From contig NZ_OY762229.1 in NCBI RefSeq assembly GCF_963665355.1, positions 1,922,001 through 1,986,000 on the forward strand: a stretch of 64,000 nucleotides of DNA, given 5' to 3'. Shown here one piece after another: positions 3,860-55,846 of this stretch. A model generated the notes under the pieces. The model searched no databases. It had not been told where the DNA came from and saw only the letters and a program-made list of their open reading frames with translations. Each line of letters opens with the position of its first letter. Position 1 is the first letter of the stretch. The translations under genes were made by a program, and so were the position numbers. Source of the stretch: an uncultured Desulfobacter sp. (lineage in GTDB: Bacteria > Desulfobacterota > Desulfobacteria > Desulfobacterales > Desulfobacteraceae).

Positions 3860-4023
3860 TTAATCTTATCTCCGCCATCGTCATTCTCCGGCGCAGATAT
3901 ATCAAATCCTTGGATTAACAACAAGGGATACTGTGGCAGGGCAATCGCCATTATCATCAGTTAATGATCAACGGAAACCAATCTCTAATCGTGATGTGAT
4001 CACATTTTCTCGATTTTTATAAT

Positions 4024-4710
4024 CTATGCTTTATCCGATTCAAATAACCGTTCAATTTCCGGGGGCAGATCCGGCAACTCCAAGGTGACGGTCCTGCCCT
4101 TATCCTTGAATGAGAGGAAATAGGAATGCAGGCCCATGGACTCGAACTGTTTTTCGGTTTTTAAAAATTCAAGGGCTCTGGGGGAGCCGTACCGTGAATC
4201 ACCCACAACCGGATGCCCAGCCAGCTTGGCATGGCGCCGAATCTGGTGCTTGCGGCCGGTGAACAATTCAACGTCCAGAAGGGTATAATGGATGGAATGG
4301 TCCAGAACCCTGTACCGGGTCAGGGCCTTGACCCGTTTTCCCCGGCCCCGGGGATCGGTTCTGCCGCCGGCGGATTTGGTCAGGGGGGTATCCCAAGTGC
4401 CCTGGTCCTGGTCAAAATGGCCGTGGACCAGGGCCTTATATCGCTTTGTCACCTTCCCCCCTGCAAAAAGATCCGAGAGTCCGGTCAGGGTGCCCCGGTC
4501 CGTGGCCACAAGGAGCAGTCCCGAGGTCTCTTTATCCAGGCGGTGAACGGGCTGGAGTATTTCCGTGATGCCGGGGCCTAAGTTTTTTTGAAGGTCCGAT
4601 AGTAAATCTCTGCCCGGATCGTTATGGACACTCATGCCCCCGGGCTTTTCCAGGCAGATCCAGCCTTGGCCGTGTTCTATTATTTTGATTTTTTTTTCCA
4701 TGACGCCCAT
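4024..4710 (-). CDS. RluA-family pseudouridine synthase, copy 1
   Basis: A 228-residue RluA-family pseudouridine synthase. These enzymes isomerise uridine in rRNA or tRNA. The catalytic motif HRLDKETSG, with its essential aspartate, is intact, followed by the conserved KRYKALVHG strand and GRKHQIRRH. The protein lacks an S4 domain and is short, like RluA or TruC types rather than RluC or RluD. It is almost identical to the copy at 12982-13668, with a few substitutions in the N-terminal third. Both look functional, so this is a recent duplication. The RNA target is not predictable from sequence. Confidence 0.88.
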   Translation of the reverse strand: MGVMEKKIKIIEHGQGWICLEKPGGMSVHNDPGRDLLSDLQKNLGPGITEILQPVHRLDKETSGLLLVATDRGTLTGLSDLFAGGKVTKRYKALVHGHFDQDQGTWDTPLTKSAGGRTDPRGRGKRVKALTRYRVLDHSIHYTLLDVELFTGRKHQIRRHAKLAGHPVVGDSRYGSPRALEFLKTEKQFESMGLHSYFLSFKDKGRTVTLELPDLPPEIERLFESDKA

Positions 4711-4796
4711 CCCATTCCGGGCCTGGGTTCAAAACCCAATGAAGGATATGGGGTGCTGACAAATTTTAGATAAAAGCTTGTTTGATAATTGCTGAA

Positions 4797-5436
4797 TCAG
4801 TTTAGCACCCGGTCTATGCCTTCCTTTGCACCAAGCGGGATGCTGATTCCTCCTATGGGCACATCGTAATCTCTCGGGTTGATGCGTATCAACGTCGCCT
4901 CCACGGTTCTGCCGATGCGCTCAGATTGCATTCTTACTGTAGGTACGGCCTTGCCTGCCCCAATTTCAATAACTGCTACTTTTGCATTCACGCTGCCAAG
5001 CCTGTGAAGCCATTTGTGCAATCGTTCTCCCTGCTGATCACTGCGGTGCGATATCCAGTTCCAGTCTCCAAACATTAAAATATTGGGACGTGCAAGCCCT
5101 CCGCAGTTCGGACATTTTGGAAGCTCTCCTGTTGCTGTAAACACCTCCATATCAACATTGACTTCAGCGTCTCCGATTTCCCAGATGCTGCTGGAGCATG
5201 GCTGGACACATTGAAGATGGTGTATGGAGCCATGGCATTCTTCAATCAGATCTTCATGAAAGCCCGCTTTTTGAAACTGCCCGTCAACATTGGAGGTGAA
5301 TACAAAATATCCGTATTGCATTTCTTCCCCTAAATCAAGCAATTTTGAAAACCCTTCGTGGGGAATTGTTTCACGATAAAGGTTTAACCTGTGCCCATAA
5401 AAAGCCCAGGCCATTCCGGGGTTTTTGACAAACCAG
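4797..5436 (-). pseudogene. Truncated sirtuin (Sir2 family), copy 1
   Basis: The 3' portion of a Sir2 NAD-dependent deacylase gene. It keeps the catalytic-histidine segment (ECHGSIHH), the zinc cysteines (CVQPC and CPNCGG) and the GAGKAVPT segment. The first ~70 residues, with the NAD-binding GAG...GLPDFRG motif present in copy 2, are missing. Homology stops at 5436, where IS66-type end sequence begins. The open frame from an internal ATG at 5414 cannot make a working sirtuin. Copy 2 at 13760-14593 is complete. Confidence 0.9.
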
Positions 5437-5514
5437 TTGTAGTAAGATTCCCTTTGCTGTGTTCGTTTAAAGATGGCTTACTATCGCACGGCTTATAAGC
5501 CGATGGAAGATGGG
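5437..5514. mobile_element. IS66-type right-end remnant
   Basis: About 78 bp between the broken sir2 and the transposase fragment. Its last ~50 bp align with the segment just before 12832: both start TATCGCA and finish with a GRTGGGGTT-type stretch and GCGCTTAC. Ends reading GTAAGCGC inward are typical of the IS66 family. The transposase fragment begins directly after GCGCTTAC, so an IS66 element appears to have inserted in that transposase and then been mostly deleted. Confidence 0.6.
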
Positions 5515-6145
5515 GTTTGTAGAGCGCTTACTTATTTTGGTTTGTAAACCAGATTCACATAAAACCTTATACCAATGGATAGAAGGGTTGGATTCAAACG
5601 ATCTTAACACCCACATTGTTAAGCGATGGACAGGGAAACGACAGGAGATTGATACCTATCGTTTTGTTAACAACGTCCTCTTGAAAGATGGCGCTGACGC
5701 ATTGCATGTCAACTGGTGTGAACTAACGACAACACTGGCAACCGATCAAATTATTTATAAAAATGCCTTTGCAACGAATTTTGAAATCCATAAAGAAAAT
5801 GTAGAACAACTTGTGATCAATGGCCGGGCTCTCTGGAAAGTTGAGAATGAGAACAATAATGTTTTGAAAAACAGAGGCTATCATTTGGAGCATAATTTTG
5901 GACACGGGAAGAAGCACCTTTCCTCAATTCTGGCGACGTTTAATCTATTGGCCTTTCTTTTCCACACCCTATTGGACAATGTCGATAAAAAATACAAGTT
6001 GGTTCGAGATAACCTTCCAGCAAGAAAGACTTTTTTTGATGATATCCGGGCACTCACCAGGTATTTATATTTTGACAACTGGGAGGCACTTTTAGACTTC
6101 ATGATACGCGGACTTGAATTGGAAGCACTACCAGATACGAGTTGA
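5515..6145 (+). pseudogene. C-terminal half of a split transposase (unclassified IS family)
   Basis: About 207 residues starting at ILVCKPDSHKTLYQWIE, continuing through YHLEHNFGHGKKHLSSI and ending with EALPDTS. This is the C-terminal half of the transposase family whose N-terminal half lies at 11679-12380 on the same strand. The missing junction (PFVELL to ILVCKPD) matches between the two pieces. No start codon belongs to this piece; the ATG at 5510 lies in IS66 end sequence. It is a dead fragment. Confidence 0.8.
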
Positions 6146-6222: not shown

Positions 6223-7652
6223 CGCTAACTTGAGATTATTTCGATGGTTTTCTTACAGCCAGATTAAAGATTGAATGTCAAAACTTAGATAGTCAGCCTT
6301 GTGAGATATGCTCATCGAACAAAAAAGTGTACAATGAGCATCCTCTGAAACGAGTTAATGGCAAATTTAGAATTGCTGTACATCATCATTCAATATGCCA
6401 TCCAATTTCGGATAGTATTAGGCATGCTAATCAAGGAACATCCTGAACTTTTTCCGCCCGAAATCGCCTTCGGATACAAAATGAAAGAGATCAGAGTCTC
6501 AAAAAAGCTGAAATTGAAAATCAGAAGAATAGTGATAGCTGGTGTCTGTTATACAATAAGGCCGTCTTTTGCGATGCCCTATATGACTGGATTTGTAAAA
6601 GATGTTGAGAAACCCTTGTTTTTGCGTAAGTTTGCCGTTCCATTTTGGGCTCTGAGTCAATGTTTCGGAAAAAATCCCATGTATTGGTATCGCCTTGAAG
6701 CAACCATTGGCCGGTACAGCCTCGTGGGAACCACTATTAAATCCCCAGACAAATTACCCCAGCACCTTTCTGCTGATGAAAAACATACCCGCCTTTTGGG
6801 AAAGAAGACCTATATAGCCACGACAGTCGGAAATAACTGTATTTTAGGAGCCAGTGTCTCGGAAACCGCTTCCGGTAAAGATCTTCAAAAAGCATACGGT
6901 GTTTTTAAAGAGGAAGCTGAATGCATTAATCCGGAATATCAGCCGGATACTGTCAATACCGACGGCTGGCCGTCAACGCAGAAAGCCTGGAAAAAGCTGT
7001 TTCCCAAGATAACCGTGCTATTCTGCTTCTTACACATTTTTATTGGTATACGTGATCGTTCTCGCAAAAAATACAAGGAGTATTTCCTCGATGCGGCCAG
7101 CAGATTATGGAGTTGCTTCAGGGCAGAATCCAAAAGATCATTCTCACAGAGAGTTCGCAGGCTTTCTGAATGGTGTCGAAATACGAAGAATGGAGTTCCC
7201 GACGTTATTGCAGCCAAAATCAAGAAGCTCAGGGATAATCTTCCACAGTTTTCCCAAATCTATGATTTTCCTGGCGCACATAGAACGAGCAACATGGTTG
7301 ACCGGTTGATGCAGCGAATGGATCGTCATTTGTTCAGTACAAAGTATTTTCACGGGACTATGAAATCTGCCAATCTCAGCATACGTGCCTGGGCACTTAT
7401 CCAGAATTTTGCTCCACTCAATCCATGGGCGGTAAGGCAAAAAGGCTATGTGAGTTCTTTTGAAAGAGTTAACGAATTTAAGTACCACGGAAACTGGCCT
7501 CAGAACCTTTTGATTTCGGGTTCACTGGGAGGCTTACGGACGGGTCCCCCAAATCCGTTATAATCAGTCGGAATAAAAGGAACGTAACCCCAAATTTTAA
7601 GGGTTAAGAGTCCAAATCATGAGCAACTAAACCAGGGCATTTAGACACCCCA
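6223..7652 (+). mobile_element. Insertion sequence of ~1.43 kb (family unassigned)
   Basis: The borders come from comparison with the inverted partial copy at 11180-11397, where sequences matching 6223-6379 (left end) and 7594-7652 (right end) lie directly abutted. The element contains one transposase ORF (6358-7563). I could not see clear terminal inverted repeats or a target duplication, so the exact ends are approximate. Confidence 0.65.
6358..7563 (+). CDS. DDE-type transposase, probably with N-terminal frameshift
   Basis: A 401-residue transposase-like protein. Candidate catalytic acidic residues lie in HLSADEKHTRL and in NTDGWP, followed by FCFLHIF and a basic region, a pattern of DDE transposases that I could not place in a named IS family. 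Upstream, another frame (about 6290-6400) encodes a Cys-rich start (CEIC, then EHPLKRVNGKFRIA). This suggests the true N-terminus is shifted out of frame around 6400, so the ATG at 6358 may be fortuitous and the gene inactive. It is the only gene of the 1.43-kb IS. Confidence 0.65.
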   Translation: MANLELLYIIIQYAIQFRIVLGMLIKEHPELFPPEIAFGYKMKEIRVSKKLKLKIRRIVIAGVCYTIRPSFAMPYMTGFVKDVEKPLFLRKFAVPFWALSQCFGKNPMYWYRLEATIGRYSLVGTTIKSPDKLPQHLSADEKHTRLLGKKTYIATTVGNNCILGASVSETASGKDLQKAYGVFKEEAECINPEYQPDTVNTDGWPSTQKAWKKLFPKITVLFCFLHIFIGIRDRSRKKYKEYFLDAASRLWSCFRAESKRSFSQRVRRLSEWCRNTKNGVPDVIAAKIKKLRDNLPQFSQIYDFPGAHRTSNMVDRLMQRMDRHLFSTKYFHGTMKSANLSIRAWALIQNFAPLNPWAVRQKGYVSSFERVNEFKYHGNWPQNLLISGSLGGLRTGPPNPL

Positions 7653-7739
7653 GGCCAAAACTAAAAGATATTTATCTATCGAGATCTGCCTGCGCTACTA
7701 TTTCACTGCACTGGCGACATGACTTTTTGAATGGATATC

Positions 7740-7805
7740 AAAATTAGGAAATGTTTTTTATAAAATTAGGAAATGTTTTTTATAAAATTAGGAAATGTTT
7801 TTTAT
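7740..7805. repeat. Three perfect 22-bp tandem repeats
   Basis: Three identical, uninterrupted 22-bp units (AAAATTAGGAAATGTTTTTT plus AT) at 7740-7761, 7762-7783 and 7784-7805. The unit length equals about two helical turns, as in iterons or arrayed protein-binding sites. No replication-initiator gene is nearby. The array lies ~115 bp upstream of the -24/-12 promoter, a distance compatible with an activator-binding site. Function unknown. Confidence 0.95.
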
Positions 7806-7919
7806 AGTAACTAAATATCTTGATGTAACGAAGCCAGTGGCTTAAAAGAGTAGATCGGGCTGCTGGCTTGATCGTTAGCCTTAAACCATTATAGACAAAG
7901 TATTGTAAGACCTTGGCTG

Positions 7920-7934
7920 TGGCGCACAATTTGC
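7920..7934 (+). promoter_or_regulatory. Candidate sigma-54 (-24/-12) promoter
   Basis: TGGCGC-N5-TTGC matches the RpoN consensus TGGCAC-N5-TTGC at all but one position and has exact spacing. Transcription would start near 7946 and run into the dockerin-protein gene. PEP-CTERM genes in some other proteobacteria are known to depend on RpoN with PrsK/PrsR, which makes this placement plausible. Confidence 0.6.
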
Positions 7935-8150
7935 TTATATCTTTCCATTCAACAAGTCAAAGTGCTGGTTTTGAGTATGGTCTCTAACTACTTAAAAGAA
8001 AGGAGATACTTAAAAATAAAAAAAGATTTTAAAGTCTGTTATATTAATTTTCCCCTTTGGGCTTGGGATCAGGTTAAGGGCTTAGGAGGGATGACGTATT
8101 TAAACAAAAAAAGAATCTGATAAGAAAAAAGAAAGGAATCTGACAAAAAA

Positions 8151-9998
8151 ATGAAAAAATTAAAATGGTTGAACATCCGTTTGATATTATCAGCAATCCC
8201 GTTTTTATTTGGATTCATTTGCGTACAGAATTCACATGCATCATTAGATAATAAAGGAACCGATTTTATTCTGGGTTTTCTGCCTAACTTAAGTACAGGA
8301 ACTTTAGAGCTACACCTGACTGCTGATACCAACACGGAAGTAACCGTTGAGTATCCGACCAATTCCCCGACGTTCACAACAACAGTAACTCTAACCCCGG
8401 GGGATGTTGCCATTGTTGCGTTGCCTTCAGAAGCCCAGAACTGGACCAGTGGTCAAGTAGGTACCAAATCGGTCCATGCATATTCTTCAGAAAATGAATT
8501 CGTATGTTACATGATCAATCGCTACTCTTACACGTCTGATGCATCATTAGCCATTCCTATGGATACTTTTAATACCGAGTATTTCACGGTTAATAACCCG
8601 GATATCAACAGCTCTTACGAATATCCCGAAATTGTTGTTGTAGCTGCCTATGACGATACTGAAGTTTCAATGACGCTGCCAGGCGGTGCGGTGCAGACTG
8701 CAACTTTAAACCGCGGTGAAGGGTATTTCTATACTCAAAGTTCGGATCTGACCGGGACATACATTAATTCAAGCAAACCAGTAGGCGTAACAAGTGGAAA
8801 CAAATGCTCCAATTACGATGGCAGTGCCTGCGATCATATTTTTGAAATGCTTCCCCCCATTGCTGCCTGGGAAAAAGCTACTCCGGCAGTTGAGCCGCCC
8901 GAAACATCCCTCGGTACCAGATACTCGATTGTTGCATCTACAGATGGGACAGAGGTGACGTATAATGGTACACTCCTCACAACTTTGAACCGGGGAGAGT
9001 CAATTTATACTGACAGGCTTACCGGAAATTATCTATTCGCAGCCAACGAGCCTATTATGGTGACACAGTATCTGGCCAACCGGTCCAGCTCCGGCGGGAA
9101 TCCCATCGGCGATCCGGCGATGGGGATACTTACACCCATTGAACAGTTTGACATTGCTTACACATTTTCAACTGTTGGCGGAGAACAGTTTTCGGAAAAC
9201 AATGTGACCATTGTTACGCCGTCTTCGGCAGTAGGGACCCTGACGCTGGACGGTACTGCAATACCAGCAGAAGAGTACAGTCAAATTGGCACCAGCGATT
9301 ACTGGGCTACCATTCAGTATCTTACGGACGGAGTCCATTCAACCAGCTCCTTTTCAGGCCACGGTATCACCGTTGAAGGGTTTAACAGTTATGATTCGTA
9401 TCTGTATACCGGCGGTGCCCTGTTTGAATTTGTCAACCCCCAGGGCGACACAAATTCCCCGATATGCTCCTGTGATGACCAGACTCACACCTGCTATGCC
9501 ACGGACGACCAGCCAAGTGAAGATGTTGACGGGAACGGTGTTCTTGACGCTGGCGAAGACCTGAATAACAACGGCCTCATTGACAAGGACAAAGGTATTT
9601 ACTTTGTAGAACTGGCTGTCGGGTCCCAAAATTTAAATCTTGTTGTTGATCCCTTTGAACCGGGTGATCCGGAAGTCGACTACTCCTACTCAAAAATTGA
9701 TCCACAACTTGAAGCAACTGGTACCATAATTGTGACCGACGGTGCTGGAAATAAGTGTGAAACCGAGGTTTACATTCCCGGTATTGACGACCCTTCTGAT
9801 ATATGTGGCGATCTGGATAATGATTATGATGTTGATGCTGCTGACCGGAACATCATAAGAGCAGCTTTTGGCGCAACTACAGGGGATGCCGGATATATTG
9901 AAGAAGCTGATTACGACCAGGACGGTGACATTGACTATGTTGATTACCGTGAATGGTATGCATGTTACAAAGCATATTTGGCCTCTCAGCTCAAATAA
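8151..9998 (+). CDS. Secreted IgGFc-binding-like protein with C-terminal dockerin
   Basis: 615 residues. A Sec signal peptide covers about residues 1-31 (basic start, hydrophobic core, SHAS). The N-terminal ~420 residues begin GTDFILGFLPN and resemble the IgGFc-binding-protein N-terminal family found in bacterial surface proteins. A Cys-rich, acidic segment follows, with an EF-hand-like DVDGNGVLDAGE. The last 66 residues form a type I dockerin with two calcium-binding repeats (GDLDNDYDVDAAD and DYDQDGDIDYVDY). Dockerins bind cohesins, and a cohesin gene lies 240 bp downstream. No catalytic domain is evident; an adhesin or structural role is inference. The ribosome site is AAGGAAT before the ATG. 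GC content is lower than in the flanking housekeeping genes. Confidence 0.88.
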   Translation: MKKLKWLNIRLILSAIPFLFGFICVQNSHASLDNKGTDFILGFLPNLSTGTLELHLTADTNTEVTVEYPTNSPTFTTTVTLTPGDVAIVALPSEAQNWTSGQVGTKSVHAYSSENEFVCYMINRYSYTSDASLAIPMDTFNTEYFTVNNPDINSSYEYPEIVVVAAYDDTEVSMTLPGGAVQTATLNRGEGYFYTQSSDLTGTYINSSKPVGVTSGNKCSNYDGSACDHIFEMLPPIAAWEKATPAVEPPETSLGTRYSIVASTDGTEVTYNGTLLTTLNRGESIYTDRLTGNYLFAANEPIMVTQYLANRSSSGGNPIGDPAMGILTPIEQFDIAYTFSTVGGEQFSENNVTIVTPSSAVGTLTLDGTAIPAEEYSQIGTSDYWATIQYLTDGVHSTSSFSGHGITVEGFNSYDSYLYTGGALFEFVNPQGDTNSPICSCDDQTHTCYATDDQPSEDVDGNGVLDAGEDLNNNGLIDKDKGIYFVELAVGSQNLNLVVDPFEPGDPEVDYSYSKIDPQLEATGTIIVTDGAGNKCETEVYIPGIDDPSDICGDLDNDYDVDAADRNIIRAAFGATTGDAGYIEEADYDQDGDIDYVDYREWYACYKAYLASQLK

Positions 9999-10237
9999 CG
10001 TTACATAAAATAGGCTCCATAGAGTAGGAAGAAGGCTGCTGCTGCTATCATTATGGGAAAGGAAGCCATTGTTAGAATAATTCAGGGCCTGCTCAAAGTG
10101 AAACCCTGAAAATTGCTTAAAAATTTTAAATGGGTTGATGAAGAATGCTGCTATGCTACCTACGAATTTTTTATGCAACCTTTGAGTGAATAAAACAACA
10201 ATTATTGAAAATCATAACATAGGAAAAGGAACAACTA

Positions 10238-10801
10238 ATGAAAATTAAACGATTAAATTTAATCCTGCTTGCAATTTTTGTTATATTTTTTGCAGCTGGA
10301 CCTGCCATGGCACTTACAATGGATCTTCAAACCACATCAACTACTGTAGCGCTGGGTAATACCTTTAAGGTTGAAGTCTGGGTTAATAGCGAGGATATTG
10401 ATGAAGAGTTGCTTTCTTTTGGTTTTGATGTATCAATCACTGATGGGGATAATCTGTCATATGTCGGATATGACTTGGGAACCTATTTTGATGATGATTC
10501 TTTGCTGGCAGATTTAGATGTTGCAGGAAGCACATTCCCCGGTGTTGCCGATGATGATGTACTTTTGGCCACACTAACTTTTACAGCCATATCCATTGGT
10601 ATGGATAATATAAACGTATCCGGGGCGTATGATGAAGATGGATTAAGTTTTTCAGGATTGTTTTATGAATTAAACGGATTTGACATTGAGGCCTCTCTTG
10701 ATATCACAGTAACCACAGTTCCCGAACCCGCAACGATCTTTCTCTTGGGTGTAGGATTACTCACCTTCATGGGGGTATCCAGAAAAAATATTCATACTTA
10801 G
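10238..10801 (+). CDS. Cohesin-domain protein with PEP-CTERM anchor
   Basis: 187 residues: a signal peptide (about 1-25, ending AMA), one cohesin-type beta-sandwich (about 27-157; starts TTVALGNTFKVEVWVN), then a PEP-CTERM signal. The signal is VPEP at 161-164, a hydrophobic helix and a basic tail (SRKN). PEP-CTERM signals are known to be processed by exosortase for surface or EPS attachment. The predicted product is therefore a small surface-anchored receptor for dockerin-bearing proteins such as its upstream neighbour. The ribosome site is AGGAAAAGGA before the ATG. No own promoter is obvious; read-through from the upstream gene is possible. No exosortase gene is in this window. Confidence 0.88.
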   Translation: MKIKRLNLILLAIFVIFFAAGPAMALTMDLQTTSTTVALGNTFKVEVWVNSEDIDEELLSFGFDVSITDGDNLSYVGYDLGTYFDDDSLLADLDVAGSTFPGVADDDVLLATLTFTAISIGMDNINVSGAYDEDGLSFSGLFYELNGFDIEASLDITVTTVPEPATIFLLGVGLLTFMGVSRKNIHT

Positions 10802-10869
10802 TACGGATCTAAATCCTCCATCTCTGGTGGAGGACCCTAATAGGTTCTACCTATCCGGTGTGAAATAAT

Positions 10870-10922
10870 ATAGGTTCATCCTCCGGGAAAGGCCCGAAGG
10901 GCAAAAAGGAGGATGAACCTAT
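10870..10922 (+). promoter_or_regulatory. Long hairpin over the IS200 tnpA start
   Basis: A perfect 15-bp stem, 10870-10884 (ATAGGTTCATCCTCC) pairing with 10908-10922, with a smaller GCCC/GGGC hairpin inside its loop. The right arm includes the GGAGG ribosome site and the first two bases of the tnpA ATG. IS200 elements are known to hide their ribosome site in such a leader hairpin. Confidence 0.75.
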
Positions 10923-11097
10923 GCATGATTGGGAAAGCTTATCTCATGTCAGATGGGATTACAAATACCACGTGGTATTTGAGCCGAAATACAGACAAAA
11001 GAAACTTTATGGGAAATTCAGGAAACAAGTTGGCGAAATATTTCGAGATCTTTGTGGGTAGAAAAGCATTGAACTACTGGAAGGGCATCTGATGCCG
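10921..11097 (+). pseudogene. tnpA: IS200/IS605-type tnpA remnant
   Basis: Too short and interrupted to be called as an ORF. The frame from 10921 reads HVRWDYKYHVVFEPKYRQKK and GKFRKQVGEIFRDLC, matching the N-terminus of Y1 (HUH) transposases of IS200. An in-frame TAG at 11059 is followed by IELLEGHLMP, after which homology ends before the HUH histidines and catalytic tyrosine. It is a dead element. Confidence 0.85.
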
Positions 11098-11179
11098 GAG
11101 CAAGTTTGGGGCGTCAAAAAAATCGCATTTTAGGTGTTTTTACTTCTCCGCTTTTTGGCACTATTGATAATGCAGAGAT

Positions 11180-11397
11180 CAGCAATTCTAAATTTGCCAT
11201 TAACTCGTTTCAGAGGATGCTCATTGGACACTTTTTTGTTCGATGAGCATATCTCAGCAAGGCTGACCATCTAAGTTTTGACATTCAATCTTTAATCTGG
11301 TTGTAAGAAAACCATCGAAATAAGCTCAATTTAGCGTGGGGTGTCTAAATGCCCTGGTTTAGTTTGCTCATGATTTGGACTCTTAACCCTTAAAATC
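11180..11397 (-). mobile_element. Inverted IS fragment: right end joined to left end
   Basis: 11180-11336 is the reverse complement of 6223-6379 (left end and N-terminal codons of the 1.43-kb IS). 11337-11397 is the reverse complement of 7594-7652 (its right end). Read on the minus strand, the right end runs directly into a left end. That arrangement is expected of tandem copies or of an IS-circle junction, not of a simple internal deletion. Confidence 0.8.
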
Positions 11398-12823: not shown

Positions 12824-12832
12824 GCGCTTACA
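12783..12832. mobile_element. IS66 right end
   Basis: Fifty bases from TATCGCA to GCGCTTAC, directly after the TnpC fragment. They align over their whole length with 5465-5514. Copy 2 of the rluA-sir2 repeat starts only 2 bp later. Confidence 0.6.
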
Positions 12833-12885
12833 TTAACGGAAACCAATCTCTAATCGTGATGTGATCCCATTTTCTCAATTTTTAT

Positions 12886-12980
12886 AACAGTCATGGGCTA
12901 TACCTGGCAGATCAGCTGATAGGCCTATCCCGCAACAAAGATTGAAAGATCTTGGTGACTTACCAAATTTTTCATATAAA
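12886..12980. repeat. MITE-like intergenic repeat, copy E1
   Basis: A ~95-bp element starting AACAGTCATGGGCTA, with TTGAAAGATCT in the middle and CATATAAA at its end. It is related to 15860-15954 and 21268-21362. It is flanked by TATA on both sides. The equivalent place in copy 1 (4020/4021) has only a single TAT/AATC junction, so this is an occupied site with a matching empty site. The GGG...CCC arms can form an imperfect hairpin. Confidence 0.8.
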
Positions 12981-12981
12981 T

Positions 12982-13668
12982 CTATGCTTTATCCGATTCA
13001 AATAACCGTTCAATTTCCGGGGGCAGATCCGGCAACTCCAAGGTGACGGTCCTGCCCTTATCCTTGAATGAGAGGAAATAGGAATGCAGGCCCATGGACT
13101 CGAACTGTTTTTCGGTTTTTAAAAATTCAAGGGCTCTGGGGGAGCCGTACCGTGAATCACCCACAACCGGATGCCCAGCCAGCTTGGCATGGCGCCGAAT
13201 CTGGTGCTTGCGGCCGGTGAACAATTCAACGTCCAGAAGGGTATAATGGGTGGAATGGTCCAGAACCCTGTACCGGGTCAGGGCCTTGACCCGTTTTCCC
13301 CGGCCCCGGGGATCGGTTCTGCCGCCGGCGGATTTGGTCAGGGGGGTATCCCAAGTGCCCTGGTCCTGGTCAAAATGGCCGTGGACCAGGGCCTTATATC
13401 GCTTTGTCACCTTCCCCCCTGCAAAAAGATCCGAGAGTCCGGTCAGGGTGCCCCGGTCCGTGGCCACAAGGAGCAGTCCCGAGGTCTCTTTATCCAGGCG
13501 ATGAACGGGCTGGAGTATTTCCGTGATGCCGGGGCCTAAGTTTTTTTGAAAGCCCGATAGTAAATCCCTGCCCGGATCGTTATGGACACTCATGCCCCCG
13601 GGCTTTTCCAGGCAGATCCAGCCTTGGCCGTGTTCTATTATTTTGATTTTTTTTTCCATGACGCCCAT
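12982..13668 (-). CDS. RluA-family pseudouridine synthase, copy 2
   Basis: 228 residues from the same start (MGVMEKK) as copy 1. The frame extends 19 codons further upstream only because of a 5-bp length difference, so the shorter start is preferred. The catalytic HRLDKETSG is intact. It differs from copy 1 at a handful of residues (for example DLLSGFQ against DLLSDLQ, DHSTHY against DHSIHY). It lies just downstream of the complete sir2 gene and in the same direction, the probable ancestral arrangement. Confidence 0.88.
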   Translation of the reverse strand: MGVMEKKIKIIEHGQGWICLEKPGGMSVHNDPGRDLLSGFQKNLGPGITEILQPVHRLDKETSGLLLVATDRGTLTGLSDLFAGGKVTKRYKALVHGHFDQDQGTWDTPLTKSAGGRTDPRGRGKRVKALTRYRVLDHSTHYTLLDVELFTGRKHQIRRHAKLAGHPVVGDSRYGSPRALEFLKTEKQFESMGLHSYFLSFKDKGRTVTLELPDLPPEIERLFESDKA

Positions 13669-13759
13669 CCCATCCCATTCCGGGCCTGGCTTCAAAACCC
13701 AATGAAGGATATGGGGTGCTGACAAATTTTAGATAAAAGCTTGTTTGATAATTGCTGAA

Positions 13760-14593
13760 TCAGTTTAGCACCCGGTCTATGCCTTCCTTTGCACCAAGCG
13801 GGATGCTGATTCCTCCTATAGGCACATCGTAATCTCTCGGGTTGATGCGTATCAACGTCGCCTCCACGGTTCTGCCGATGCGCTCAGATTGCATTCTTAC
13901 TGTAGGTACGGCCTTGCCTGCCCCAATTTCAATAACTGCTACTTTTGCATTCACGCTGCCAAGCCTGTGAAGCCATTTGTGCAATCGTTCTCCCTGCTGA
14001 TCACTGCGGTGCGATATCCAGTTCCAGTCTCCAAACATTAAAATATTGGGACGTGCAAGCCCTCTGCAGTTCGGACATTTTGGAAGCTCTCCTGTTGCTG
14101 TAAACACCTCCATATCAACATTGACTTCAGCGTCTCCGATTTCCCAGATGTTGCTGGAGCATGGCTGGACACATTGAAGATGGTGTATGGAGCCATGGCA
14201 TTCTTCAATCAGATCTTCATGAAAGCCCGCTTTTTGAAACTGCCCGTCAACATTGGAGGTGAATACAAAATATCCGTATTGCATTTCTTCCCCTAAATCA
14301 AGCAATTTTGAAAACCCTTCGTGGGGAATTGTTTCACGATAAAGGTTTAACCTGTGCCCATAAAAAGCCCAGGCCATTCCGGGGTTTTTGACAAACCAGA
14401 CAGGATCTGCCATCTCACTGAACGATTTGCCCAGTTTTGCTATGGGTGGGTAAGCTTTCCAAAAACCTGCATTCCCTCTAAAATCAGGCAAACCCGAATC
14501 TACGCCCATACCGGCTCCGGCAGTTATGAAAAGTGCATCCGCATCTTTAATAACTTCGGAAGCGTGTTGGATATTTTTTTCCAGATTGTCCAT
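13760..14593 (-). CDS. Sir2-family NAD-dependent protein deacylase
   Basis: A 277-residue, complete sirtuin. The NAD-binding motif is GAGMGVDSGLPDFRG (about residues 26-40), the catalytic His lies in ECHGSIHH, and the zinc ligands are CVQPC and CPNC. Sirtuins remove acyl groups from protein lysines using NAD. In this copy the zinc knuckle reads CPNCRG, while the truncated copy keeps the usual CPNCGG. The GAG-Ser position is Gly, a variation common in bacterial subgroups. It is followed by rluA on the same strand. Confidence 0.9.
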   Translation of the reverse strand: MDNLEKNIQHASEVIKDADALFITAGAGMGVDSGLPDFRGNAGFWKAYPPIAKLGKSFSEMADPVWFVKNPGMAWAFYGHRLNLYRETIPHEGFSKLLDLGEEMQYGYFVFTSNVDGQFQKAGFHEDLIEECHGSIHHLQCVQPCSSNIWEIGDAEVNVDMEVFTATGELPKCPNCRGLARPNILMFGDWNWISHRSDQQGERLHKWLHRLGSVNAKVAVIEIGAGKAVPTVRMQSERIGRTVEATLIRINPRDYDVPIGGISIPLGAKEGIDRVLN

Positions 14594-31023: not shown

Positions 31024-33982
<2,959 letters not shown>

Positions 33983-34096
33983 GTTTAGTTATATCTTGAT
34001 TTTTGACCTTTTAATATTACGTCCTTTTTCCGGCAAAGCATTTCATATCGCCTGATCAATGCCCTAAAATTCTTTTTGCACTGATTCTAAATGACT

Positions 34097-34111
34097 GCAA
34101 TGGGTGTGCCA
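34097..34111 (-). promoter_or_regulatory. Sigma-54 promoter of glnD-glnB-glnA
   Basis: On the minus strand TGGCAC-ACCCA-TTGC, a full match to the RpoN core consensus with exact spacing. The predicted start lies ~100 nt before the glnD start. Nitrogen-limitation control through an NtrC-type activator is the known pattern for such genes. Confidence 0.8.
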
Positions 34112-34317
34112 GCCTTTTATTTTCAACAGGTTATAAGGCCTGTGTGTGGCTGAAATCTGCAAGTCAAAGAAAAGACTAAGGTTTGTTACGATAATGTCTA
34201 TTCGGAAGAGCGCCATATTACTTTTTTGTAATTACCTCCATTCAAAGGGTCTAAAAACGACAGATGAAATGCAGGCAAAGATACGAAGTGTCGAATTTTT
34301 AAAAAGGCATAAATAAT

Positions 34318-34344
34318 CAGCCAGACAAATGGCGTGTCTGGCTG
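34318..34344 (-). terminator. Hairpin downstream of tatA
   Basis: A perfect 10-bp stem CAGCCAGACA/TGTCTGGCTG with a 7-nt loop, 37 bp past the tatA stop. Only a weak U-rich tail (ATTATTTAT) follows on the minus strand. Confidence 0.6.
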
Positions 34345-34380
34345 TGTAAAATAAAAGAAGGATAGGACTGACGGATACCA

Positions 34381-34569
34381 CTAATTTTTATCTATTTTTT
34401 CAGGTTCCTTCTCTTTGTCTTCTTCAATGGGTTCCCTTGTTGCTTTTTTGAAATTCTTAATGCCCTTTCCTAAACCGGCACCGATTTCAGGCAGCTTGCC
34501 CGCTCCGAATATAATAAGGATAATTACCAGGATTATTATTAACTCCGGCATTCCTATGCCACCAATCAT
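34381..34569 (-). CDS. tatA: Sec-independent (Tat) translocase subunit TatA
   Basis: 62 residues: a single N-terminal membrane helix ([23 protein letters not shown]), the conserved FG hinge, an amphipathic helix ([12 protein letters not shown]) and an acidic/basic tail. TatA multimers form the pore that exports folded, twin-arginine proteins. tatB and tatC are not adjacent. The small size fits TatA/E rather than TatB. Confidence 0.9.
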
Positions 34570-34851
34570 GATTCAAGCTCCTCTTTGTTTTTTCATGGCG
34601 TTAGCACAAAAGTCATTAAATCAGGTCATTAACATTTAACCTGTCCGAAGTCAATCCTTAAGGATTTATGGCTGTTTCTCTCAATGTTTCAGTTTTGTAA
34701 TAAATGGGTGGTGTTTGAAATGTATGCAGACCTCCCCCCAGTGTGTTCTTCGTAAAGGGACAGATTAACCATTGACTATAAAAACCGAGCCTGCTAACCA
34801 AGCAGCTTAAACTTATTCCCACTCAATAAACCCGACATAACGGAGAATCCA

Positions 34852-35703
34852 ATGACAAAACATCAAGACGCACGGTTCCAGGGGGCTCAAAAATATGTGC
34901 TTGACCCGGAGCTTGCATCCATTGTCAATATATCCATGGCCCTTGAGATGCCCCTGCTCCTGAAAGGCGAGCCCGGCACGGGTAAAACCATGCTCGCCCA
35001 TGCCATTGCCGACACCCTGGACATGAAGCTGATTGTTCTCAATGTCAAATCAAGCATGAAGCTTGTGGAGGCCCTGTATCAGTACGATACCCTTACCCGG
35101 CTCAATGATTCACGGTTTGGTGATTCTGAAAGGGATGTCAGTAATATTAATGAATATATAAGGATGGGGAAAATCGGTCAGGCCTTCTGTGCAGAAAAAA
35201 GGACCGTTCTTCTTATTGATGAGATTGACAAGGCAGATACTGATTTCCAGGATGATATGCTTGATGTTCTGGATCAGATGCAGTTTGATATCATTGAAAC
35301 CGATCAAACCATAGCCGCCATTCACAGGCCCGTAATCATCATTACATCCAATGCCAAAAAAGATTTATCCGATCCCTTTCTCGGGCGGTGTAATTTTCAC
35401 CACATTGCCTTTCCCGATCCTAAAATGATGCGCAGGATTATCCAGGTTCATTTTCCCGGCATTGATTCAAAACTGGCGGAGAACGCCGTTAACACATTCT
35501 ATGCGGCCCGGGAGATTGAGGGGATAGAAAAAAAGCCTGCCACCCGGGAGCTGATCAACTGGATACGCGCCCTGCAGGCAGATCCGGACTTTAAGGCCCA
35601 GGACATTCTCCAGGGGAGTATGCCGTTTTTAGGCGTGCTGTTTAAAAAAAGTCCGGACTATGAACGGGCCAAAAATATGACCGGCCGACGTCAACGATTC
35701 TGA
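34852..35703 (+). CDS. MoxR-type AAA+ ATPase
   Basis: 283 residues. Walker A GEPGTGKT (about 38-45), Walker B TVLLIDEIDKAD, sensor-1 VIITSNAKKDLSDPFLGR with the arginine finger, and sensor-2 in the C-terminal helices. MoxR ATPases act with von Willebrand factor A proteins as chaperones or metal-insertion machines; the vWA partner starts 11 bp downstream. The target complex is unknown. Confidence 0.88.
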   Translation: MTKHQDARFQGAQKYVLDPELASIVNISMALEMPLLLKGEPGTGKTMLAHAIADTLDMKLIVLNVKSSMKLVEALYQYDTLTRLNDSRFGDSERDVSNINEYIRMGKIGQAFCAEKRTVLLIDEIDKADTDFQDDMLDVLDQMQFDIIETDQTIAAIHRPVIIITSNAKKDLSDPFLGRCNFHHIAFPDPKMMRRIIQVHFPGIDSKLAENAVNTFYAAREIEGIEKKPATRELINWIRALQADPDFKAQDILQGSMPFLGVLFKKSPDYERAKNMTGRRQRF

Positions 35704-35714
35704 GGTTATTGTCC

Positions 35715-36908
35715 ATGTTTCTCAAATTTTTTTATACATTAAAGGACGTGGGCGTGCCTGTCTCTCCCACATCTTTTCTGACCCTGCAAAAGGCCCTTTA
35801 CCAGGGGCTGATCACCAGCCTGGACGATTTTTACACCTGTGCCCGGTCTGTGCTGGTGAAAAGCGAACGGTATTTTGATCTTTATGACCAGGTGTTTGCA
35901 TATCATTTTGACGGCATCCCTCTGCCCGAGGATGCTGGATTTGAAATCGACCAGATGGCCCGGGATATGCTGAATGAATGGCTGAAAAATCCTAAAAAGA
36001 TGGCCGATGCCCTGGGTGTGGACGAAAACGCCTTAAAAAACATGACCCCGGATGAGCTCATTGAATATTTCAAAGAACGGCTCAAGGACCAGGACGGTCG
36101 CCATGACGGCGGAAGTAAATGGATCGGCACCGGCGGTTTCTCGCCTGTGGGGCATTCCGGTTATCATCCCGGCGGCATGCGGGTGGGAGGTACTTCCAGG
36201 AACAAATCTGCGGTGAAAGTGGCCAATGAACGAAGATACAAGGATTACTCCACCCGGGGCCCTTTAACCCAGGCCAAAATCGGAGAAGCGTTAAAACGAC
36301 TTCGCAATATGATTCCGGCGGGCCCCAAGGATGTCATCAATGTGGATGAATCCATACGGGCGACCCTTCGCAACGGCGGGGAGGTGGAATTGATTTTTGA
36401 CCGGGCCATGAAGGATAGGCTCAAGGTCATCCTTGCCATTGACAACGGCGGGTGGTCCATGGATCCCTATATCCATGTGGTCCAGACCCTTTTCAATTAT
36501 GCCCGGGCCCAGTTCAAGGAAGTAAAAACCTACTTTTTCCACAACACCATCTATGATTGCGTCTGGGAAGATCCGTCCCGGTATAAAAAACCTAAAAAAA
36601 TAATGGATTTTGCCCGGCTGGATCCGGAAACCAGATTCATTGTCGTGGGTGATGCCAGCATGGCGCCCTACGAACTTTTGGCCTCCAACGGGTCCATCCA
36701 TATCACCGATCGCAGCGGACGATCCAGCATCCAGCAACTCCGGTTTTTATCGGAAGTTTTCAGGTGTGCGGTGTGGCTTAACCCGGTATCGCCAACGATG
36801 TGGCACTATACCCATACCATCATGGCCATTGCCCAGGTTTTTCCCATGTATGAACTGTCCTTGGACGGACTTGAAAAGGCAGTAATAAAACTGATGGAAA
36901 AGAAATAA
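35715..36908 (+). CDS. VWA-domain (CoxE-like) protein
   Basis: 397 residues from ATG 35715 (GAGGTT upstream; a TTG at 35709 is possible). The N-terminal half is helical. A Gly-rich linker at about 135-175 leads to the vWA domain from about 235, with the metal site as DNGGWSM instead of the classical DxSxS. YFFHNTIYDCVW and PVSPTMWHYTHT follow. Partner of the preceding MoxR ATPase; such pairs remodel or mature other proteins. No client gene is adjacent. Confidence 0.85.
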   Translation: MFLKFFYTLKDVGVPVSPTSFLTLQKALYQGLITSLDDFYTCARSVLVKSERYFDLYDQVFAYHFDGIPLPEDAGFEIDQMARDMLNEWLKNPKKMADALGVDENALKNMTPDELIEYFKERLKDQDGRHDGGSKWIGTGGFSPVGHSGYHPGGMRVGGTSRNKSAVKVANERRYKDYSTRGPLTQAKIGEALKRLRNMIPAGPKDVINVDESIRATLRNGGEVELIFDRAMKDRLKVILAIDNGGWSMDPYIHVVQTLFNYARAQFKEVKTYFFHNTIYDCVWEDPSRYKKPKKIMDFARLDPETRFIVVGDASMAPYELLASNGSIHITDRSGRSSIQQLRFLSEVFRCAVWLNPVSPTMWHYTHTIMAIAQVFPMYELSLDGLEKAVIKLMEKK

Positions 36909-53356: not shown

Positions 53357-54505
53357 TTAGAATTTAAACTGAGTGGACTGACGCCAGCTCATGTAGGCCT
53401 GCTGACGGAAATCGTCAATCAGGTGGTGGGTGAAGTCAAGTTCACAAGCTTCAAAGAATTTTTCCCATCCGATTCTCTCCGCCCAGTCACCCAGACGTTC
53501 GTATTTGTTGGCGCCGTTTGAGTAGGCGTTAACAATCTTTTTGATGGCGTCGGTCATGGACGGCCAGCGGGGCATTTCGTTGGGCAGGAAGGCCACAACA
53601 ACCTTGGAGAATTTCGGATCGGAAATACGGTTGGACACCTTGCCGCCAGCCATGAGAACGATACCGTCACCGTCGGCGTCGGCAAGGGGCATGGAGGGGC
53701 ACATGGTGTAGCAGTTACCGCAGTACATGCAGCGTTCGTTTTTAACTTCAACGGATTTTACTTCAGTGCCGTTGGCCAGTTTAACTTTTGCCGGTTTGAT
53801 GGCTGCGGTGGGGCATGCGGAAACGGCCAAGGGGATTTCGCAAACCTTGTCCAGGTATTCATGGTCAAGCATTGGCGGTTTTCTGTGGTAACCCAGAATG
53901 GCGATGTCAGAACAGTGAACAGCACCGCACATGTTCAGGCAGCAAGCCATGGAAACACGAAGCTGTGCAGGCATTCTCATCTGTTGGAAATCGTCAAACA
54001 GTGCATCCATGGTGACCTTTACAGTACCGGAAGCATCAGTTGCCGGGGTATGACAGTGGATCCAGCCCTGGGTGTGAACGATGTTGGTGACGCCGGCACC
54101 AGTGCCGCCGATGGGGAATTTAAAGGAACCGCCGGCGTACTTTCTGGAAGCCAGATCGTTTTTCAGGGGCTCTACTTTGTCCTTGGAGTCAACCATGAAC
54201 TCAATGTTGTTACGGGTGGTGAAACGGACATACCCGTCACAATGTTTGTCGGCAATCTCACAGATTTCATTGATGTGAGCAGTGCCCATCAGACGCGCAC
54301 CACCAACTCTTACGGTATATACTTCATCACCGGAATCGGCCACATGAACCAGTACGCCGGGCTCCAGGATTTCATGGTGGGACCATTTGCCTTTATTTTT
54401 AGCGATAACAGGAGGATAGAAATCGTTAAAGTCTCTGGGACCGATGTCGGTGATCCTGTTTTGCATCGGGTTTTTGGGATCATACCCTGTGGAAATAAAT
54501 GCCAT
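53357..54505 (-). CDS. dsrB: Dissimilatory sulfite reductase beta subunit
   Basis: 382 residues. The siroheme/4Fe-4S ligands lie in [11 protein letters not shown] with further cysteines, and there is an inserted ferredoxin domain ([12 protein letters not shown]). With DsrA it reduces sulfite in the last step of sulfate respiration, passing product via DsrC. It starts 15 bp after dsrA and is co-transcribed with it. Confidence 0.97.
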
Positions 54506-54520
54506 TATGATTCTCCCTTT

Positions 54521-55846
54521 TTATCTTAAGTGATGTTTTCTGTAATCGTCAACGTCACGTTCCCAGCCACCCGTTACTTCGTCTTCTTTCCAGAAGATGT
54601 AGGGGTTGGTTCTCGGGTAGGCAACATGCTGGGGCATCGCTTCGATACCGGTCACTTCCAGAAGTTTCTGGAAACCCTGGCGCATAATCAGCTCGCCAAG
54701 ACGTTCACGGTTCTTGCCTTCTTCCATCCACCAATCCCATACGTTTTCAATGATTTCTGTGATTTCTTCGTAATCATTTTCAGGATTGACTTCAACAAAG
54801 GGAACCAGCAGAGAGCCCATCTGGGCACCGTCAAGGATCGGAGCCTTGGCACCGCAGAGAATGGACAGACCAGTCTCTTTACCGATTTTAAGGGCTTTGG
54901 GCATAACACAGATACAGTGCATGCAGCGGGTGCAATTGGCATTGTCAATGGTCAGTTTTTTGTTTTCAAACTTCATGCAGCCTGTGGGGCAAAGTCCGAT
55001 AACTTCTTTCTGGATGTCAAAGGGACCCCAGTCTTTGCCTTTGTGGGCACCGGCGTTGGGGGGGTATGCAGCATCGCCTTCAACATATTTGTTAACCGCG
55101 TCCTGATCAATGCGGATGTCGTCTTTCCAGGTACCGATGAAGGACATGTCGGAACGGGCGATGGACGCCACGCAGCAGTTGGGGCAGCCGTCAAGTTTGA
55201 ATTTAAACTTGTAGGGGAATGCCGGACGATGCAGCTCATCCTGATATTCGTTGGTCAGGAAATGGCACAGTGCGCTAGTGTCGTAGCAGGCATATTCACA
55301 TCTGGACTGGCCAAGGCAGTCAGCAGGGGTTCTCAGGTTGGAGCCGGAACCACCCAGATCCTGGTTCATATCGTGGGTCAGTGTCCAGAACACTTCTTCC
55401 AACTGGGGAGTCGTGGTGCCCAGCAGAATGATGTCGCCGGTGGCGCCGTGCATATTGGTAACTCCGGAGCCCCTGAAGTCCCACAGATCGGTCAGTTGTC
55501 TGAGGTATTCGGTTGTGTAGTATTTACCAGCAGGCTGGTTTACGCGGATGGTGTGGAAATGTTCAACACCGGGGAACAGTTTGGGCTGGTCGCAGTAACG
55601 ACCGATAACGCCGCCGCCGTAACCGAATACGCCAACGATGCCGCCGTGTTTCCAGTGGGTACGTCCATGTTTGTAAGAGAGTTCCAAAACACCGAGAAGA
55701 TCGTCTACACAATCCTGGGGAATCTGAAATTCAACGCCTTTTTCGTTTTTTGCTCTGACTTCTGCCTGCTGTTTCAGGTCAGAAACGAAGCTAGGCCACG
55801 GGCCAGATTCCAGCTCGTCCAGTAAAGGAGTTTGATGCTTAGCCAT
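54521..55846 (-). CDS. dsrA: Dissimilatory sulfite reductase alpha subunit
   Basis: 441 residues. Seen are the CLGQSRCEYACYD and GCPNCCVASIARSD cluster ligands and a ferredoxin domain (NCTRCMHCICVMPKA). It is the catalytic alpha subunit of DsrAB. The dsrABD-cbiA order and the presence of dsrD mark the reductive, sulfate-reducer type. GGAGG precedes the ATG. A leader with two inverted repeats lies upstream. Confidence 0.97.
   Translation of the reverse strand: MAKHQTPLLDELESGPWPSFVSDLKQQAEVRAKNEKGVEFQIPQDCVDDLLGVLELSYKHGRTHWKHGGIVGVFGYGGGVIGRYCDQPKLFPGVEHFHTIRVNQPAGKYYTTEYLRQLTDLWDFRGSGVTNMHGATGDIILLGTTTPQLEEVFWTLTHDMNQDLGGSGSNLRTPADCLGQSRCEYACYDTSALCHFLTNEYQDELHRPAFPYKFKFKLDGCPNCCVASIARSDMSFIGTWKDDIRIDQDAVNKYVEGDAAYPPNAGAHKGKDWGPFDIQKEVIGLCPTGCMKFENKKLTIDNANCTRCMHCICVMPKALKIGKETGLSILCGAKAPILDGAQMGSLLVPFVEVNPENDYEEITEIIENVWDWWMEEGKNRERLGELIMRQGFQKLLEVTGIEAMPQHVAYPRTNPYIFWKEDEVTGGWERDVDDYRKHHLR

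Follow-up and report, generated by a model that had tools for sequence, protein, structure and literature searches.

The window, by which we mean the whole stretch of 64,000 nucleotides analysed here (uncultured Desulfobacter sp., assembly GCF_963665355.1, contig NZ_OY762229.1, positions 1,922,001 to 1,986,000), carries two neighbouring genes on the + strand that encode a secreted protein with a C-terminal dockerin (8151-9998) and a small cohesin-like protein with a PEP-CTERM tail (10238-10801). We propose that together they make up a two-part display system, in which a single cohesin anchored through an exosortase probably holds the dockerin-tagged protein on the cell surface. This reading, put forward in an original prediction made from the letters of the window and a list of its open reading frames (ORFs), appears from sequence comparison to be the best supported one because such genes are paired far above background and with unrelated cargoes, because the two modules co-vary, because both families resemble known cohesins and dockerins, and because an exosortase is encoded in this genome as in most genomes with a tailed partner. 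The claim that the host is a sulfate reducer agrees with DsrA (54524-55846) and DsrB (53360-54505), which are both encoded in the window.

The first gene encodes a protein of 615 residues in which a signal peptide, recognised by eye, is followed by an IgGFc_binding domain (PF17517, residues 130-408, 188 bits, E 2.4e-55 in Pfam), a linker and a dockerin (residues 551-615, positions 9801-9995), so that it is indeed predicted to be secreted and is IgGFc-binding-like. Both calcium loops of the dockerin are complete when read from the sequence (residues 554-565, positions 9810-9845, and residues 587-598, positions 9909-9944); they follow the DxDxDxxxDxxD pattern and are each followed by a helix, at 22-31 and 55-72 of a structural model with a low predicted local distance difference test score (pLDDT 62.9). 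The two repeats that had been predicted are therefore present, but Pfam Dockerin_1 (PF00404) stays below its curated cut-off of 22.9 bits for the window protein alone, with 6.9 bits in the scan of the window and 19.4 bits (E 0.0076) in the search of its own genome, and the EF-hand model of Pfam scores higher. The window dockerin is 72% identical to the dockerin of locus L129 and 64% to that of locus L123. When the profile of the dockerin family (A6) was compared with the PDB, 2y3n_B came first (1.7e-6) and 5lxv_B second (2.6e-5), both entries being cohesin-dockerin complexes by their titles, and calmodulins came next. A Foldseek search with the low-confidence dockerin model returned dockerin or cellulosome entries in rows 1-17, the best with an E-value of 0.066.

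The IgGFc region had no PDB match at E <= 1 in a profile search. The nearest relative found comes from a different family in the phylum (locus L148); it matches residues 2-558 with 51% identity and then ends in an unrelated C-terminus, similarity stopping inside the first eight residues of the dockerin. Among 40 near genomes PF17517 was found only in the window's own, with none in the 39 relatives, several of which are incomplete, and across the phylum it was found in 4 of 395 genomes, in one of them weakly.

Some 240 bp further downstream, also on the + strand, the second gene encodes 187 residues, with a signal peptide (by eye), a single cohesin-like domain (residues 26-158, positions 10313-10711) and a PEP-CTERM sorting signal (positions 10715-10786) composed of VPEP, a hydrophobic stretch and RK. 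The VPEP-type signal had been predicted and is confirmed by PF07589 (28.6 bits, cut-off 20.7), and with the signal peptide it gives the protein the features of a PEP-CTERM substrate. The cohesin label needs more care. Single-sequence searches with hidden Markov models (HMMs), a rejection by which the original prediction would have counted as refutation, failed by themselves to recover it, and the label was rescued by relatives aligned with the window's domain. In a profile of 22 such sequences (A7), Pfam Cohesin (PF00963) matches eight at E <= 0.1, the best at 3.4e-7, and of 11 members in an earlier set it matches four at E <= 1; neither group of matches includes the domain of the window itself. 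Against all PDB sequences, A7 gave six matches at E <= 1, of which the first five (E 0.0085-0.015) are 2jh2, 2ozn, 2o4e, 2w1n and 5lxv_A, a chain named as a ScaC cohesin, and the sixth is an Ig-like protein. We take the first four to be NagJ cohesin chains, 2ozn presumably being a complex of the NagJ cohesin with a dockerin. The solved complex 5lxv is thus matched by both profiles, A7 on chain A and A6 on chain B. At the level of the family, then, Pfam on the relatives, the PDB profile search and the alignments point to homology with cohesins, and a low-confidence model of the window's domain gives no more than a weak hint of it. NCBIfam matched none of the 22 tail-less domains at E <= 0.01; since it has no match for these cohesins and both window domains fall below Pfam cut-offs, the pair may be easy to overlook.

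Elsewhere in the genome, a full exosortase protein (PF09721) is encoded at C2:2715494 and scores 246 bits; polysaccharide genes surround it (locus L016), which places it in an exopolysaccharide locus as judged by reading and not by HMM. Sixteen proteins of this genome have PEP-CTERM tails over the Pfam cut-off, and the only two near a dockerin match are the same two that the A7 profile finds, in the window and at L013, both of which are rows of A7; the remaining tailed proteins that were read look unrelated to the cohesin family. The search for further modules returned five dockerin matches, including that of the window, and a sole Pfam cohesin match, a protein of 372 residues at C2:3770947. 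A partner-like neighbour also accompanies three more dockerin genes. At L013 a phosphoesterase with a dockerin is next to a tailed cohesin-like protein of 187 residues; at L014 a short cohesin-like-plus-dockerin protein precedes a tailed protein of 188 residues, which is no clear cohesin and has a tail absent from the Pfam output; at L012 a C39-peptidase-like protein with an N-terminal dockerin precedes the Pfam cohesin protein, which has no tail. The dockerin at L015 is an orphan, and its relative L085 in another genome has a tailed neighbour. More widely, PF09721 was found in 22 of the 25 genomes tested, including 20 of the 22 with a tailed partner protein; it was undetected in G069, where no pair was seen, in G076 and in a metagenome-assembled genome (MAG) labelled Nitrospirae (a 1.5-Mb assembly). 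Genomes G019 and G047 have exosortase and dockerins and lack the pair.

By searching the 86 genomes of the family with Dockerin_1, we found 53 matches in 18 genomes; adding the weaker match of the window gives 54 matches at 53 places, of which L072 has no ORF and some lie at contig ends. Counting as an anchored neighbour a tail pattern within 1.5 kb, 22 of these 53 places have one, or 24 when L095 and L075 are added by eye, and true anchored neighbours are on the same strand and mostly <= 240 bp from the dockerin gene. Independent events are fewer than 24, because one locus is counted twice, as L098 and L099, and because L074, L077 and L078, with two places each, are orthologues. Nevertheless, 22 anchor ORFs occur in 270 kb near dockerins compared with 7 in 777 kb elsewhere (2.4 expected, Poisson P 2.7e-14), one ORF in each group being a wrongly flagged membrane protein, and sixteen control regions (304 kb) contain no anchored neighbour. 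In the window's genus, a tailed partner stands next to a dockerin gene in 9 of 19 genomes.

Searches that started from the cohesin led to the same arrangement. With window-type cohesin domains cut before the tail, or keeping at most a few of its residues (A4), the class (389 genomes) yielded 22 matches, spread over 18 genomes and including three query rows; among the 19 others, a PEP-type tail is present in 15 and a dockerin neighbour in 13 (18 and 16 when the query rows are included), with L144 and L146 being duplicates of L075 and L085. Searched with the A7 profile, the phylum (395 genomes) yielded 23 matches, spread over 18 genomes; of the 21 outside the own genome, 12 end in a PEP-type tail and 9 stand, by reading, beside a dockerin-like gene, L167 and the cohesin frame of L173 being left unresolved in this count. 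Against 84,980 species genomes, two of 100 candidate stretches picked up by A4 are relatives: L123, in a MAG labelled Deferribacteres (44% identity), and L124, in the MAG labelled Nitrospirae (52% identity over part of the domain). Both have a PEP tail and a dockerin gene directly upstream, and since both lie on MAG contigs, mis-binning is possible.

These surveys also turned up variants of the arrangement. At L074, L077 and L078 a single tailed cohesin gene sits between two dockerin genes, that is, one anchor with two passengers. At L014, L067, L084, L091, L094, L097 and L137, a tailed protein comes after a short one that ends in a dockerin and whose N-terminus reads as cohesin-like; most of these short proteins carry two near-identical repeats and are possible adaptors, and for those of L014 and L094 Pfam found the dockerin and no cohesin. 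The CotH-kinase-type dockerin gene of L069 (G017) is without the tailed cohesin neighbour that its relative L075 (G018) has, which suggests loss of the partner. Finally, the window-type tailed cohesin of L128 (G018) directly follows ORFs that read as transposase-like, and the 1.4 kb before it contain no dockerin gene; it is possibly an orphaned anchor.

The cargoes joined to these dockerins have little in common. Pfam on 21 dockerin proteins, six of them cut at the N-terminus, found Metallophos with choice_anch_I or LTD, Exo_endo_phos, CotH kinase with LTD, LamG, PD40, PKD with beta-helix, CARDB, SdrD_B, DUF11 and IgGFc_binding. None of the 21 has a catalytic glycoside-hydrolase family; the cargo of L123 matches the lectin-like N-terminal Sialidase domain PF02973. 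With a single Pfam cohesin in the genome, membership of a cellulosome was rejected, and the non-cellulosomal use proposed at the outset fits these results. The cargoes of L013, L015, L085 and L096 are phosphoesterases or nuclease-like (Metallophos, Exo_endo_phos), a hint of surface phosphate or DNA use.

Next to this diversity of cargoes, dockerins and cohesins change together. Over 29 of the 31 compiled pairs, dockerin and cohesin distances correlate strongly (r 0.774, p 1e-4), whereas cargo distances follow those of the cohesin hardly at all (r 0.069, p 0.14) and those of the dockerin to which they are fused modestly (r 0.277, p 6e-4). This contrast with the fused cargo implies that the two binding modules stay together more than either stays with the cargo. 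Restricting the permutation of partners to within five genomes with several pairs left the association significant (p 0.001), and for the 17 pairs found via dockerins only, the correlation was 0.573 (p 1e-4) against -0.016 for the cargo. With types assigned by eye, the 11 pairs of type A, to which the window belongs, gave r 0.863 (p 2e-4), the cargo correlating as well (0.40, p 0.03), and the seven pairs of the adaptor type gave 0.476 (p 0.0026). In all 19 pairs of type A or B the nearest dockerin and the nearest cohesin agree on the type. The test leaves out L077 and L078 and the second dockerin of L074, L077 and L078; L098 and L099, whose dockerin is not C-terminal; L012, with an N-terminal dockerin and an untailed cohesin, and L145, also with an untailed cohesin; the duplicate loci L125-L127, L144 and L146; and the pairs from the phylum-wide A7 search. 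The L137 dockerin entered as 31 residues only.

Taken together, these data suggest the following course of events. Both proteins would leave the cytoplasm by means of their signal peptides. The PEP-CTERM tail of the small protein would then be processed by the exosortase encoded elsewhere on the chromosome, and the processed cohesin would finally be located in the exopolysaccharide or on the surface of the cell. The cargo protein, which has no anchor of its own, would bind this cohesin through its C-terminal dockerin, presumably in a calcium-dependent way, and its IgGFc-binding-family part, probably adhesive, would thereby be displayed on the cell. The pair would be one case of a recurrent combination of dockerin and anchored cohesin that is reused with unrelated cargoes.

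Several observations weigh against this display model. It leaves the passage of the cargo across the outer membrane without explanation. Pfam Cohesin gives no match to the window's domain, and the AlphaFold model of this domain, although all-beta with nine strands, is poor (pLDDT 45.6); Foldseek places cohesins in its first three rows (1g1k_A, prob 0.91, E 0.13) and then mixes in pilin and antibody entries, and neither low-confidence model, that of the dockerin included, has a match below E 0.001. Aligned by hhalign with the one Pfam cohesin of the genome, the cohesin family is matched weakly (9% probability, E 0.0036), the control against the IgGFc region being weaker still (0.4%, E 0.17). 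No anchored neighbour is found at 29 of the 53 dockerin places, among them all six of genus g2 (G019 and G047), and the tailed partner cannot be recognised as a cohesin at loci of the adaptor type, L014 and L067 for example. Two of the 22 carriers of a tailed partner, G076 and the Nitrospirae MAG, have no detected exosortase, and the tailed pair L080 of G076 would be left without its enzyme unless the assembly has a gap or another exosortase family is at work. As for co-variation, the eight pairs of type B show none (r -0.22, p 0.78); when types A and B are combined (r 0.774) the cargo correlates too, though less strongly (0.279, p 0.0075); in 17 of 29 pairs the three nearest dockerins include the nearest cohesin, and in the other 12 they do not; and a correlation of distances can arise in part without binding, because neighbouring genes share their history.

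Some of these points would favour a simpler account, in which the two genes are adjacent merely as accessory surface-protein genes, the tailed protein being a structural PEP-CTERM matrix protein and the dockerin finding its partner elsewhere. In its favour, shared history would produce part of the correlation, type B shows no correlation, more than half of the dockerin places have no such neighbour, and Pfam does not recognise the window cohesin. However, among the tailed proteins of the genome that pass the cut-off, the two cohesin-like ones are the only ones close to a dockerin match, the fused cargo hardly co-varies with the cohesin over the 29 pairs (r 0.07), and the two family profiles match the two halves of one solved complex, 5lxv; we thus regard mere adjacency as quite unlikely. 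Another account would see in the C-terminal repeats a plain EF-hand calcium-binding tail and in the second protein an unrelated immunoglobulin-like matrix protein. The higher Pfam EF-hand score on the window protein, the calmodulins that come next in the PDB list of the tail profile, the Ig-like sixth match of the cohesin profile and the pilin and antibody entries among the Foldseek rows of the cohesin model could all be read in this way, but in the PDB the tail profile finds two dockerin chains before anything else, Foldseek lists dockerin or cellulosome entries in all of its first 17 rows for the tail (E 0.066 and worse), and 8 of the 22 members of the cohesin family match Pfam Cohesin, which makes this account highly improbable.

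A further alternative accepts the contact and gives it another purpose, namely to build a larger non-cellulosomal scaffold, in which the dockerin binds several cohesins, including that at C2:3770947, or in which the cohesin-like-plus-dockerin protein at C2:1280852 links the members. The genome does offer parts for it, with five dockerin matches, a Pfam cohesin, an adaptor-like protein at L014 and an orphan dockerin at L015, and elsewhere one tailed cohesin stands between two dockerin genes (L074, L077 and L078). In contrast, the agreement of the by-eye types A and B in 19 of 19 pairs argues for private pairing, and a single Pfam cohesin match in the own genome is little to build with, so that we hold such a scaffold to be unlikely. 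The display model itself can be extended, tentatively and with considerable doubt on our part, to sorting in trans. The dockerin would here be a portable ticket: secreted proteins lacking a PEP-CTERM tail would use it to reach the surface by way of the exosortase, carried by a tailed cohesin. The 3' end that codes for the dockerin would form, with the adjacent cohesin gene, a cassette of about 1 kb, grafted behind many unrelated cargo genes and also passed between phyla.

The pair lies in an island that had been described as IS-rich, AT-richer and enclosed by direct repeats. In outline this is right: the repeats, at 4018-5436 and 12975-14399, are 98.9% identical over 1425 bp and enclose 7.5 kb of lower G+C, and the island has 38-45% G+C where the window has mostly 47-53% elsewhere. 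One transposase, of the IS66 family, is over the cut-off, a second, MULE-like ORF being below it, though another stretch (33001-36000) is low in G+C too (42-44%). According to Pfam and the comparison of the window with itself, the left repeat copy contains a pseudouridine-synthase-like ORF and a SIR2 ORF without its N-terminus, and the SIR2 ORF of the right copy extends to 14593. Left of the pair lies an insertion-sequence-like element (6223-7659, + strand) with the MULE-like transposase ORF (6358-7563, PF10551, E 0.0026); right of it lies an inverted remnant (11180-11396, - strand) with both ends of this element (96% over 157 bp and 96% over 67 bp), so that the two bracket the genes. Composition, repeats, this bracketing and the restriction of PF17517 to the own genome among the 40 searched support acquisition, as had been proposed, and fit a transfer of the pair on an IS-bracketed island, perhaps as a composite element. 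In relatives where both genes of the direct repeat were matched, for instance G017 and G018, they are far apart, which leaves no simple comparison with an empty site.

Other details of the island are as follows. A 56-bp piece beside the IS66-like transposase (12832-12887) is repeated at 95% identity at 3967-4022, just outside the left direct repeat, which means that the repeated unit extends beyond the two genes. About 350 bp upstream of the dockerin gene, at 7740-7806, are three perfect tandem copies of a 22-bp sequence (AAAATTAGGAAATGTTTTTTAT), which 11565-11587 matches at 74%. The pair is closely followed, at 10920-11130, by a fragment that we take to resemble the start of an IS200-type transposase, and a 211-residue ORF of the island (5510-6145) has no match in Pfam or NCBIfam. 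A scan of 7700-11000 gave 7 promoter-like sites, where 8.1 were expected, and no terminator-like site, where 2.5 were expected.

No paper in the PubMed Central literature searched joins "dockerin" with "PEP-CTERM", "cohesin domain" with PEP-CTERM, or choice-of-anchor with dockerin. The one paper there that mentions both dockerin and exosortase is a review of anaerobic methanotrophic archaea (ANME), which does so in separate sections and calls the function of cohesins and dockerins outside the cellulosome not known (PMC5244752); of PEP-CTERM proteins, PMC1569441 says that their similarity to known proteins is low. The binding modules and the sorting route are thus each known, and their joining as a recurrent pair of one receptor and one passenger was not found in the literature searched. 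To both fields, that of non-cellulosomal cohesins and dockerins and that of PEP-CTERM proteins, the recurrent pair offers a testable hypothesis, an anchored receptor with a tagged passenger, and similar pairs with unrelated passengers suggest a more general display system. Should types A and B turn out not to cross-bind, diderm bacteria would already have in them orthogonal pairs with which to display proteins on the surface.

Single cohesins already serve as cell-wall anchors of cellulosomes, as in the sortase-anchored ScaE of Ruminococcus flavefaciens and the SLH-anchored cohesins of clostridia. There too, proteins with a dockerin are held on the cell by a surface protein that combines a cohesin with an anchor; those systems are Gram-positive, use LPXTG or SLH and serve cellulosomes, whereas the anchor in the window is PEP-CTERM and its likely cargo is one protein encoded next door. 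Cohesins outside cellulosomes were reportedly reviewed by Peer et al. in 2009. The NagJ cohesin, whose chains 2jh2, 2ozn, 2o4e and 2w1n are among the best PDB matches of A7, is likewise non-cellulosomal, but its modules join secreted glycosidases, while one partner of the window pair is an anchor only. Syntrophic sulfate reducers that partner with ANME also have non-cellulosomal cohesins and dockerins (PMC10553843, PMC5244752), some of them adjacent and with a suggested role as adhesins. The main text of PMC10553843 has neither "PEP-C" nor "sortase" and reports cohesins as absent from related clades, whereas 9 of 19 genomes of the window's genus have a tailed partner. Another diderm, Ca. Stygibacter (Cloacimonadota), is described in the relevant part of its report as having a cellulosome-like complex of cohesin and dockerin proteins, with hydrolase and peptidase cargo on a multi-cohesin scaffold of 3,755 residues attached to the cell by a C-terminal domain, where the window has a single cohesin and PEP-CTERM (PMC8542988). 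With the PEP-CTERM/EpsH system, as set out in the main text of PMC1569441, the window shares the signal peptide, the PEP-CTERM tail and an EpsH-type enzyme in an exopolysaccharide locus; that text contains neither cohesin nor dockerin, and in the window the tailed protein would be the receptor for an untailed one.

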